Shown here piece after piece: positions 24,086 through 60,128 of a DNA stretch of 64,000 nucleotides. Source of the DNA: Natrinema saccharevitans (lineage in GTDB: Archaea > Halobacteriota > Halobacteria > Halobacteriales > Natrialbaceae); assembly GCF_001953745.1 (NCBI RefSeq), contig NZ_LWLN01000001.1:1054001-1118000 (forward strand). The letters run 5' to 3'. Made by a program: the position numbers and the translations under genes. Numbering within the stretch: position 1 is the stretch's first letter; each line of letters begins with the position of its first letter. Below the pieces are notes generated by a model, which saw only the letters and a program-made list of their open reading frames with translations, searched no databases and had not been told where the DNA came from.

Positions 24086-24411
24086 TTCGGCCGTCGTGTC
24101 TCCGGTCACCAGTTCGGACGCGATCGCTCCTCGACGGAGTAACTCGTCTCGGCTCCCGTCGCCACTGACACGATTCGACCACTGATCCGACGTCGTCGTG
24201 CGATCGGGTGGACAACGACTCGCAGTGGGTGCGATATCGCTCGGTGAGTCGTCCGTGCGAACGGTTTCTCCCGGTCGTAAGTAGTGGCGTCCCACCCGCG
24301 TCTTCTCGACCACGATCTCACGCGCCGTGACGGGGGCCCGAACGGGCTCGAGCGAGAGCCGAGTTACGGAGAATCGAGAACGAAGCCCCGTCCTTTAGGG
24401 CGGGGAGGATG
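24086..24411. other. Intergenic region, 326 bp, carrying an IS1341/TnpB-type end relic
   Basis: The first 200 bp have no gene. From about 24325 to 24412 the sequence resembles the extreme right end of haloarchaeal IS1341-type (TnpB-only IS200/IS605 group) elements: a fragment that would read RRDGGPNGLEREPS in one frame, like a degenerate TnpB tail, then the GAAGCCCCG...CGGGGAGG hairpin. No tnpB, tnpA or left end is present. The relic abuts the stop codon of the DUF1616 gene. Confidence 0.5.
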
Positions 24412-57027: not shown

Positions 57028-58740
57028 CTAATCGAGGTCGTCGGGGGTCGAACCGGGGTCGGTTCCGGGGCCGCGTTCGCCGAGGTCGACCTCGACCGAG
57101 GCGGCTTTCGGATCGAGTCCCTTGCGGAGGGCGTCGAGTTCCGAGAGGGCGTAGACCAGGCCGACGAGCAGGACGGCGCCCAGCGGCAGGAAAAAGACCG
57201 GCGAGACGCCGAGGAAGCCGTAGAGGGCGTAACAGACGATCACGACGAACAGGACGGTGCCGGCGTAGGACAGTTGCGTCCGGATGTGGTCGATGAGGTC
57301 GGCCCCGGTGAACGTCGACGAGAGGACCGACGTGTCCGAGATCGGCGAGGCGTGATCGCCGAAGATCGCGCCCGAGAACACTGCCCCGACCATCGCCGGC
57401 ATCAGCTCGAACGTCCCGGTCAGTTCGTAGGCGACGGGGATCGCGATCGGCGTGACGATCCCCATCGTCGCCCACGACGACCCCATGGTGAACGCGACGA
57501 ACGCCGAGACGAGCAACACGACGATCGGGAGGACGGCGGGCGAGACGACGCCCTCCGCGGCGCCGGCGACGTACTCGCCGGTCCCGAGGTCCTCGGCGAC
57601 CGCGCTGATCGACCACGCGAGGACCAGCACCGTCACCGCCGTCAGCATGAGGCCGAACCCGTCGAGGATCGACTCGGTACTGTCCCCGATACCGAAGAGG
57701 TCGTAGAACAGACCGATGGCGATCGCGGTCGCCACCATCCCGAACGATCCCCAGACGAGCGCCGCCGCGAAGTTCCCGGAGCCGACGACGTCGATCAGGA
57801 CCGGGACGAGATTGTCGGCCCCGATCGCCGTCTCGAGCGACGTCGTGGCGCCGGCGTCGGCCTGGTCGGCCTGCCACGCCTGATAGCCGGTCCAGAACGC
57901 CCCGGCCAGCGTGACCGCGATCAACACGACGACGGGCGCGAAGAACGTCCGGAGCATCGGTCGGTCCTCGATGGGGGCGCCCAGGTCCTTCTCGACTTCC
58001 TGTAGGGGCTGAGCGTCGTCGCGGTTGACCTTCCCGGTTTGCCGCGCGCGGTGTTCGGCGTCGAGCATCTCGCCGAAATCCCGCCGCGAGACGACGATGA
58101 TCCCGACCATGAGGATCGCCAGCAGCGAGTAGGTGTTAAACGGGATCGAGCCGACGAACGTCTCGAACGCGCCCGGCGTATCGGCCGCCGAAACGCCGTT
58201 GTCCGCGTCCGCGAGCGTACTGTAGCCGTCCTCGATCATCGACAGCTGGAACGCTACCCAACTCGAGAGGCCGAGCGTCGCCACGGGGGCGGCCGTCGAG
58301 TCGACGATGTAGGAGAGTTTCTCCCGGGAGATACGCATCTGGTCGGAGATCTCCCGCATCGTACTGCCGACGATGGCCGTGTTCGCGTAGTCGTCGAAGA
58401 ACATGGCCATCCCGAGGATCCACGTCGCCAGTCCGGTCTTTCGCGGGGTCTCGAGGTTGGCGACCGCCCAGTTGCGGACGGCGGTCGCCCCGCCGAGGCG
58501 CCAGATCAGCGCGACCCCCGACCCCAGCAACAGGGTGAACACGAGGATCTGGGCGTGGAACTCGTCGGCGATCGAGCCGACGATCCAGTCGAACGTTCGT
58601 CCGATACCGAGACTGCCGGTCGCGATGACGCCGCCCGACCAGATCCCGAGAAACAGCGACAGGATCGGCCGGCGGGTCACGATCGCGAGCGCGATCGCGA
58701 GCAGCGGCGGTGCGAGCGAGAGCGCGCCGTAGGTTGCCAT
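57028..58740 (-). CDS. nhaC: NhaC-family Na+/H+ antiporter
   Basis: 570 residues, about 12 membrane helices. Family marks: FLGIWSGGVIATG, MAMFFDDYANTAIVGSTMREISDQ, STAAPVATLGLSSWVAFQLSMI, FGMVATAIAIGLFYDLFGIG and MGSSWATMGIVTPIAIPVAYEL with SGAIFGDHASPISDTSVLSS, typical of the NhaC group. It exchanges cytoplasmic sodium for external protons. Followed at the 5' side by the repeat region 58797-58960. Confidence 0.92.
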   Translation of the reverse strand: MATYGALSLAPPLLAIALAIVTRRPILSLFLGIWSGGVIATGSLGIGRTFDWIVGSIADEFHAQILVFTLLLGSGVALIWRLGGATAVRNWAVANLETPRKTGLATWILGMAMFFDDYANTAIVGSTMREISDQMRISREKLSYIVDSTAAPVATLGLSSWVAFQLSMIEDGYSTLADADNGVSAADTPGAFETFVGSIPFNTYSLLAILMVGIIVVSRRDFGEMLDAEHRARQTGKVNRDDAQPLQEVEKDLGAPIEDRPMLRTFFAPVVVLIAVTLAGAFWTGYQAWQADQADAGATTSLETAIGADNLVPVLIDVVGSGNFAAALVWGSFGMVATAIAIGLFYDLFGIGDSTESILDGFGLMLTAVTVLVLAWSISAVAEDLGTGEYVAGAAEGVVSPAVLPIVVLLVSAFVAFTMGSSWATMGIVTPIAIPVAYELTGTFELMPAMVGAVFSGAIFGDHASPISDTSVLSSTFTGADLIDHIRTQLSYAGTVLFVVIVCYALYGFLGVSPVFFLPLGAVLLVGLVYALSELDALRKGLDPKAASVEVDLGERGPGTDPGSTPDDLD

Positions 58741-58796
58741 AGCTACCTAGTCGTCCGGTCTCCGGATATGCTTCATCGTTCCGATTTGGCCACTGT

Positions 58797-58874
58797 AGTG
58801 GCCACTGAACGTCGATGCACACCTGATCGCACCGCTGTCGTGCGATCGGCGTAGCACTCGTTTCAGTGGCTACT
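58797..58874. repeat. 78-bp palindromic repeat unit 1
   Basis: Starts AGTGGCCACTGAAC and ends TTTCAGTGGCTACT, which pair. The middle keeps TGCACAC-TGATCGCA and TGCGATCGG, so a long cruciform or RNA hairpin is possible. Nearly the same length and layout as unit 2. Confidence 0.8.
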
Positions 58875-58882
58875 CTATCTAT

Positions 58883-58960
58883 AGTAGCTCTTGAAAGTCA
58901 ATGCACACCCGATCGCAGGACAGCGTTGTGATCGGTGTGTAACTCGTTTCAAGAGCTACT
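58883..58960. repeat. 78-bp palindromic repeat unit 2
   Basis: AGTAGCTCTTGAAA and TTTCAAGAGCTACT at the ends are perfect reverse complements, extended to 17 bp if flanking TAT/ATA is included. Interior shares ATGCACACC-GATCGCA and AACTCGTTTCA with unit 1. The terminal arms differ from unit 1 but in compensating ways on both sides. Eight base pairs separate the units. Confidence 0.85.
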
Positions 58961-59015
58961 ATAGTCACCCTCTAGATGGCGAATTGGACCGGTGAACAGG
59001 CGTTCACGGAGGACG

Positions 59016-60128
59016 TCAACGTCGCAGAATCAGTTTCAGTACGTCCTCGTCCTCGAGGACGTGATCTTTCCCGACCTGTTGCTGGTCGTGGGCCGCGCTG
59101 GGGCCGGTGACGCGGGCGAAGCGAAATCGCTCCTCCATCTCTCCGCCGAGCTTCTCGACCGCTTCGCCGACGGTCGCGCCCTCCTCGACGACAAGCGGCT
59201 CCTCCCAGTCGATCCCGCGGCCGGGCTTGTCCATGTAGACCCGGATGAGCCCCAGGTTCTCCCAGAGGCGGTCCTTGAGTGCCTCGAGGCCTTTCTCCTC
59301 CTCGGCGCTGATGAAAGTCACTTCCTCGGGGTCGAGCCCGCGCTCGCGCAGCTGTTCGTCGACGGTCTCCTTGTAGTCGGGGTCGATGAGGTCGACCTTG
59401 TTGACGCAGGTGATCGAGGGGATGTACTCGCGGTTCTCCATCAGGCCGTCGACCAGCCGGTCGATTGTGACGTTCTCCTGGAGGTTGACGACGGCGTTGA
59501 CGTAGCCGTGTTCACGGAGGACCTGTTTGATCGTGTCCTCGTCCAGGTCCTGGTCGGTGCTCGAGGTGATCTTGATGCCGTCTTTGATCTTCGGCCGGAC
59601 CGTGACCCGCGGGGGCTGCTGGTCGACGCGGATGTTGATGTCGTGGAGTTCCTTCCGGAGGCGGTCGTACTGTTCGATCTCGAACACCGAGAGCATGAAG
59701 ACGATCAGGTCGGCGTTGCGCACCACCGCCAGCACCTGCTGGCCGTCGCCCTTGCCCGCGGCCGCGCCCTCGATCAGGCCGGGGACGTCTAACAGCTGGA
59801 TGTTCGCGCCGCGGTGGCTGAGCATCCCGGGGTTGACGTCCAGCGTCGTGAACTCGTAGGAGCCGGTCTCGCTCTCGGCGTTGGTCAGCGAGTTCAACAG
59901 CGAGGATTTGCCGACGCTCGGAAAGCCGACCAGGGCGACGGTCGCGTCGCCGTGTTTCTCGACGGAGTAGCCGCCGCCACCGCCGCTGCCGGACTGCTGG
60001 TTCTCGAGTTTCTCCTTTTTTTCGGCGAGCTTGGACTTCAGCCGGCCGATGTGGGCCTCCGTGGACTTGTTGTAGGGCGTGTTGGCGATTTCTTCTTCGA
60101 TCTCCTCGATCTCGTCCTCGAGCCCCAT
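59016..60128 (-). CDS. DRG-family developmentally regulated GTP-binding protein
   Basis: 370 residues from the ATG at 60128, where a coiled-coil-like N-terminus (LEDEIEEIEEEIANTPYNKSTEAHI) starts. G1 is GFPSVGKSS, G3 is DVPGLIEGA, G4 is NKVD, and a C-terminal TGS domain (about 300-370, IRVYMDKPGRGIDWEEPLVVEEGATVGEAVEKL) ends in the LILRR type. The family is universal in archaea and eukaryotes and associates with ribosomes. Longer upstream ATGs are inside unrelated GC-rich sequence. Confidence 0.95.
   Translation of the reverse strand: MGLEDEIEEIEEEIANTPYNKSTEAHIGRLKSKLAEKKEKLENQQSGSGGGGGYSVEKHGDATVALVGFPSVGKSSLLNSLTNAESETGSYEFTTLDVNPGMLSHRGANIQLLDVPGLIEGAAAGKGDGQQVLAVVRNADLIVFMLSVFEIEQYDRLRKELHDINIRVDQQPPRVTVRPKIKDGIKITSSTDQDLDEDTIKQVLREHGYVNAVVNLQENVTIDRLVDGLMENREYIPSITCVNKVDLIDPDYKETVDEQLRERGLDPEEVTFISAEEEKGLEALKDRLWENLGLIRVYMDKPGRGIDWEEPLVVEEGATVGEAVEKLGGEMEERFRFARVTGPSAAHDQQQVGKDHVLEDEDVLKLILRR

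Follow-up and report, generated by a model that had tools for sequence, protein, structure and literature searches.

The Locus and Its Two Palindromic Units

The window analysed here, a stretch of 64,000 nucleotides, belongs to a genome of 3.98 Mb with three contigs (the host genome, G000, whose contigs 1 and 2 are abbreviated C1 and C2). The locus of interest comprises two palindromic units lying between two minus-strand genes, just where an earlier note on this DNA had placed them. The downstream neighbour is a gene for an antiporter-like membrane protein related to NhaC (57028..58740), whose score is below the NCBIfam equivalog cut-off, and the upstream neighbour encodes an Obg/DRG-like GTPase (59016..60128).

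Both units are given on the plus strand. Unit 1 (58793..58877, 85 nt) is an older copy with degraded ends (CTGTAGTGGC ... GCTACTCTA), belonging to a subfamily, B, with CAC/CAC arms; unit 2 (58879..58964, 86 nt) is a copy of subfamily A with intact ends (CTATAGTAGC...GCTACTATAG). The two align at 72% over 85 nt, with a start-to-start spacing of 86. From TA to TA, unit 2 measures 84 bp, or 82 bp plus the duplicated TA; its left (58880..58881) and right (58962..58963) TA are presumed to be a target duplication, by analogy with four empty sites at other loci. The 18 bp of the left arm (58879..58896) are a perfect complement of the 18 bp of the right arm (58947..58964). Within them, a variable triplet at positions 11–13 (58889..58891, TCT in unit 2) and its partner (58952-58954) differ between subfamilies A and B on both arms. 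A sequence identical to unit 2 over 86 nt occurs at a second place in the genome, G000:C1:3017720-3017805, and a third, degenerate family copy was found in the window by profile search, on the minus strand (24158..24236; 35 bits, E 3e-9).

The palindromes described in the earlier note are real: both units fold into hairpins of nearly full length (z –5.96 and –10.05, plus strand), with none of 200 shuffles folding as well. Their bounds, given as two 78-bp units 8 bp apart, were a few bases short: the units of 85 and 86 nt nearly abut and the supposed spacer consists of the two CTATAG-type ends trimmed off the 78-bp units. The paired differences between the ends of the two units are also genuine, three adjacent pairs differing on both sides between the subfamily consensuses. 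At least 14 of 18 end bases were paired in 7 of the 63,922 stretches of 78 bp in the 64 kb, including unit 2, where all 18 are. The existence of a family of at least 105 members in the genome is stronger evidence against a chance origin than this count.

A Repeat Family Widespread among Haloarchaea

The element is a non-coding, almost fully palindromic DNA that starts with TAGTAGC and finishes with GCTACTA. The genome-wide search proposed in the earlier note, which had regarded an absence of other copies together with the lack of a transcript as fatal to its reading, yielded by profile at least 105 distinct places in the host genome. Of these, 101 are near full length; contig 1 carries 82 of the places and contig 2 the other 23. 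The figure of 105 is a minimum, as only part of the places with the end pattern were examined. Dispersed copies on both contigs were also retrieved with the locus and with unit 1 as queries (40 of 149 and 40 of 107 candidates scored, respectively), and the end pattern TATAGTAGCNNNTGAA was counted 74 times on one strand and 75 times on the other, as compared to 0 and 0 for a reversed control pattern. Two of the copies, G000:C2:5063-5148 and C2:411479-411564, have equal scores and equal distances to their neighbouring genes and lie near the two ends of contig 2, reflecting either a long repeat or the overlapping ends of a circular replicon.

Within the genus, every one of 29 genomes contained the family, and so did 35 of 61 relatives overall. 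Across the class it was detected in 135 of 391 genomes and 34 of 86 genera, a survey in which two candidates were scored per genome and which therefore reports presence, not copy number. Among plasmid records, 37 contained the family, and the names they carry all appear to be haloarchaeal; no copy was found in the phage records searched.

Some relatives of the family were noticed along the way. At ten places (L079, L096, L105, L118, L153, L154, L156, L176, L183 and L186) the same ends enclose a loop expanded by short repeats such as GCGCGGTTCGGAGCG, with spans of about 111–420 bp where a right end was found; these are possibly another MITE (miniature inverted-repeat transposable element) type that uses the same machinery. 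At four more (L085, L097, L174 and L198) the same ends flank unrelated interiors (e.g., ...CAGGGCTCACAACCGGTGCC...), with spans of about 118–123 bp, so that one set of ends appears to be common to several interiors.

Insertion at TA and Duplication of the Target

We joined the flanks of 16 host-genome copies and searched for the resulting empty sites across the genus. At 4 of the 16 loci, those with readable empty sites, TA was duplicated: N-TA-N in the empty allele corresponded to TA-element-TA, the empty allele reading CTAG or CTAC and the occupied one C-TA-[82 bp]-TA-G. Clean empty sites were found in three genomes for L009, in three for L015 and in one of two for L020, and at L013 the TA was kept in 12 of 13 aligned genomes. 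The sites at L014, L019 and L035 were ambiguous, and the other nine loci gave no informative junction. Because the empty and occupied alleles differ in this way at four loci, we conclude that TA is the insertion target and is duplicated in the process.

A strong preference for the CTAG context was apparent as well. C...G flanks were found for 55 of the 83 copies with readable ends (21 of the 104 copies, whose TA ends could not be read, are left out), as compared to 117 of 8,181 background TAs (1.4%), which include overlapping stretches of the host genome. Insertion at TA with duplication and a preference for CTAG both agree with mobilisation of the IS630/Tc1-mariner type. Tenzen and Ohtsubo, as cited in PMC2170065, are said to have reported in 1991 that IS630 prefers a TA within CTAG. 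As described in PMC2170065, TA duplication is a signature of IS630/Tc1-mariner transposases, and the IS630-family transposase ISY100 duplicates TA in vitro.

Three of the loci deserve a separate comment. The copy at L015 (G000:C1:3076320-3076405) interrupts a gene-like frame precisely at its TAG stop; an in-frame TGA provided by the element follows a few codons on. The copy at L013 (G000:C2:188783-188868), missing from the 13 aligned relatives, lies a few codons past the start of a gene that we take to encode a 3-hydroxyacyl-CoA dehydrogenase, judging from the motif VGVVGAGTMG. The flanks of the copy at L014 (G000:C2:157467-157552) match a sequence that occurs several times in G011, G019 and G023, so that this copy lies inside another repeated, probably mobile, element.

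A Candidate Mobilising Element

In related genomes we identified an insertion sequence (IS) of the IS630/Tc1-mariner type, 1,059 bp long, which has the terminus TATAGTA in common with the short repeat. Within the genus, 18 of 29 genomes carry DDE_3 transposase genes, and within the family 71 of 121 do; most of the top-scoring genes belong to an element of roughly 1,059 bp, both termini of which start with TATAGTA, mostly with C...G flanks. At 40 of 52 DDE_3 loci, TATAGTA-type ends were found 1,040–1,075 bp apart, 30 of these 40 having C...G flanks. The open frames of the element match HTH_33/HTH_32 and DDE_3.

Up to 23 of 30 terminal bases are equal between the IS and the MITE, the IS ends having been chosen by their TATAGTA start. 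Over the 22 positions that follow the common first 8 bases, the MITE ends agree with the consensuses of their IS counterparts at 12 and 11, values reached by 419 and 1,454 of 200,000 random genomic 22-mers. Moreover, the left end of the MITE is like one IS end and the right end like the other, including at positions 8, 21 and 24, where the IS ends differ. Thus the ends are related to those of an autonomous transposon, as is typical of a MITE, with a likeness that is moderate past the first 8 bases. Comparison of the ends lends moderate support to the notion that the MITE descended from, or was selected to match, an IS630-type element. Among the loci searched for an autonomous element with exactly the ends of the MITE, the pairs at IS-like distances looked like neighbouring or partial MITE copies.

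Neither a DDE_3 gene nor IS DNA (with the IS of a relative as DNA query) was detected in the host genome; as a positive control, the identical query found the IS in 6 of 12 genomes searched. The IS was also absent from other copy-bearing genomes, namely G001, G006, G008 and G020. An active pair should have its IS630-type transposase in the same genome, whereas a stranded MITE need not, and since the host genome has no detectable IS copy, its copies may now be stranded, having probably been mobilised by a lost or visiting element. Given the lack of a DDE_3 gene and of IS DNA there, the recent burst of subfamily A must have relied on a transposase that has since been lost, was brought in transiently or escaped recognition.

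Subfamilies and Changes in the Arms

Two subfamilies dominate among the 93 of 104 host-genome copies considered for this count (11 with indels were omitted): A, to which unit 2 belongs, with 37 copies of 86 nt (many of them 97–100% identical), and B, to which unit 1 belongs, with 54. Two of the 93 fall into neither. Between the A and B consensuses, positions 11–13 and 74–76 change on both sides (T-A to C-G, C-G to G-C and T-A to C-G). Within the subfamilies, changes are mostly one-sided, with 91 one-sided versus 5 two-sided changes in A and 236 versus 39 in B, a pattern that looks like decay and argues against upheld pairing. The coupled changes suggested in the earlier note are real for the three A/B pairs, but they mainly reflect two founder lineages and do not represent many independent compensations.

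The coupled change probably arose in the founder copies, whose arms were possibly matched by hairpin-templated repair or replication before the founder multiplied. Among 199 sequences of exactly 86 nt (93 from the host genome and 106 of 124 unique near-full copies from elsewhere), a sample that is partly pattern-selected because its genome-contig part was chosen by a pattern fixing C at position 13, 95 had the same triplet in the two arms. The most frequent form was unmatched (CAC/AAC, 43 of 199), and the matched forms TCT/TCT, CGC/CGC, AAC/AAC and CAC/CAC also occur. At the two ends of the 1,059-bp IS, positions 8–13 were identical in 1 of 40 copies, a rough contrast, as this block differs in length from the MITE triplet. 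We tentatively suggest, while regarding it as somewhat less than an even bet, that the two arms correct each other, the short hairpin letting replication copy one arm from the other.

As for the tandem arrangement, side-by-side copies also occur elsewhere in the genome (C1:964599-964759 and C2:366660-366810), the neighbours having border bases in common. A simple explanation for such pairs would be that a later copy inserted at the border of an earlier one, each insertion making TA-rich borders. At the present locus, unit 2 (subfamily A) would be the younger insertion, placed right at the border of the older unit 1 (subfamily B). Both units were missing between the nhaC-like and DRG genes in 8 of 8 relatives. 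In two of these, G026 and G006 (L314 and L316), this gap contains a different, degenerate family fragment on the opposite strand, apparently an independent insertion.

Discussion

Features by which a MITE is recognised are found in this family: it is short, non-coding and multi-copy (86 nt, at least 105 places), and has terminal inverted repeats. Of the explanations put forward in the earlier note, the miniature inverted-repeat element is the one that was borne out, by empty sites, by TA duplication at four loci, by the target preference for CTAG, by the shared TATAGTA terminus with similarity further in, and by the high copy number, together with a candidate mobilising IS family. We consider it very likely that the two units are neighbouring MITE insertions, moved in trans by a transposase of the IS630/Tc1-mariner type, and we infer that such an enzyme was the actual mover of the copies. 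Encoded by the 1,059-bp elements and endowed with HTH and DDE_3 domains, the transposase would recognise matching ends, excise the element and paste it into a TA, preferably within CTAG, thereby duplicating the TA. Subfamilies A and B would each stem from a founder whose arms were already matched, their copies then decaying neutrally.

The earlier note had also considered a structured RNA, and a conserved RNA element, structured or cis-regulatory, whose pairing is preserved by compensatory changes, would agree with the strong predicted hairpins and with the three adjacent pairs in which A and B differ in both partners. Furthermore, in a tree built on the 50-bp interior, and therefore weak, partner positions changed on the same branch 56 times versus 10.5 expected. 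However, partners slid by one column were also above expectation (37 and 42), implying that much of this coupling is block inheritance and tree noise, and decay is prevalently one-armed within both subfamilies. No Rfam match reached the gathering score in the window, and below that score only chance-level matches were seen at the locus. Insertions are polymorphic among close relatives, the pair is missing from the nhaC–DRG gap in all eight relatives, and the gene arrangement around the copies shows no skew, so that we judge a conserved RNA very unlikely. A protein that binds to the shape of the palindrome, another idea of the earlier note, finds no support either, in view of the same one-arm decay, lack of a tie to gene arrangement and absence of the pair from relatives. 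A related question is whether the copies, albeit MITEs by origin, have been exapted as promoters, terminators or insulators of neighbours such as the antiporter gene. Unit 1 does start 52 bp before the start codon of that gene, and 82 of the 105 places are intergenic, 22 overlapping the end of an open reading frame (ORF) and 1 lying inside one, in a window that is about 83% coding (gene calls for these counts came from a home-made codon model). Yet selection against gene disruption alone predicts an intergenic bias: the element contains stop codons (TATAG, TAG, TGA), so insertions inside genes would truncate them and are presumably lost. In addition, the convergent, divergent and tandem gaps occupied (13/23/34) are close to the background of intergenic bases in the window (2,255/3,066/5,656). 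Nothing points to a conserved role for the copies at the nhaC–DRG locus or in the gene arrangement, and we regard exaptation as improbable.

Other short mobile repeats offer further comparisons. A palindrome of the REP/REPIN kind, moved by a single-strand transposase (HUH, Y1/RAYT or IS605-type) like the Haloquadratum PATEs, would likewise be short, intergenic and present in more than 100 copies. HUH elements do not duplicate their target, as described for PATEs and IS605 in PMC3119063, and elements of the PATE/IS605 type have no terminal inverted repeats, whereas the present family has both features, and its ends resemble those of the IS630 type; a HUH-based origin is thus extremely unlikely. 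The small mobile repeats (SMRs) of Haloquadratum (HqIRS40-43 and HqIRS55) are, according to the account in PMC3119063, elements of 80–110 bp from a haloarchaeal host, with prominent inverted repeats and no coding capacity. High copy number agrees too with the notion that our family is an SMR whose mover is unknown. Nonetheless, the SMRs are characterised in PMC3119063 by the lack of a target duplication and by ends unlike any transposon, and on both points, compared by description, the present family differs, with its TA duplication and IS630-type ends (TATAGTAGC). Membership in that class is therefore highly improbable, though in the SMRs a duplication as short as the 2 bp of TA could have escaped notice.

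An IS630-type MITE, the reading we prefer, has precedents in both bacteria and archaea. The RUP element of pneumococcus, as presented in PMC2229807, is 107 bp long, occurs in 108 copies and is mobilised by IS630-Spn1. Like our family, it is a non-coding, intergenic repeat of about 100 bp that has about 100 copies per genome, uses TA as its target and shares its ends with an IS630-family element (PMC2229807); the differences are the domain of life, the sequence, the partner IS missing from the genome and the strong CTAG preference in our case. The Methanosarcina mazei MITE listed in PMC3852290 (89 bp, IS630-type, partner ISMma9, 5 copies, 16-bp inverted repeat, DR 0) shares archaeal host, type and similar length; unlike it, and again compared by description, the present family has at least 105 copies, a TA duplication and a class-wide haloarchaeal spread. 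The Correia/NEMIS elements of Neisseria, as portrayed in PMC2229807, are also small, with TA ends, inverted repeats and a target duplication, and give hairpin transcripts in Neisseria, but differ in sequence, host and internal variants (107 and 155 bp; PMC2229807).

We found no description of the family in the searchable literature; subscription papers and ISfinder fall outside this scope, and an earlier naming there is possible. Among the matches listed, papers containing the bare end strings of 9–10 letters all looked unrelated by title. We regard the family as genuine and widespread but of a familiar sort, namely an IS630-type MITE comparable to RUP or the 89-bp MITE of M. mazei.

What looked like a new structured RNA can now be annotated as a mobile element for which there is a candidate mover, and which is present in 34 of the 86 haloarchaeal genera sampled. 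More generally, when two palindromic repeats differ by 'compensatory' pairs, selection on an RNA need not be the reason, and the 'enigmatic' short mobile repeats of Haloquadratum are worth re-examining for TA duplications and IS630-type ends. If the arms indeed correct each other, a single step could produce new matched ends from which further subfamilies would grow, and the evolution of transposon ends would be driven by the element's own palindrome.
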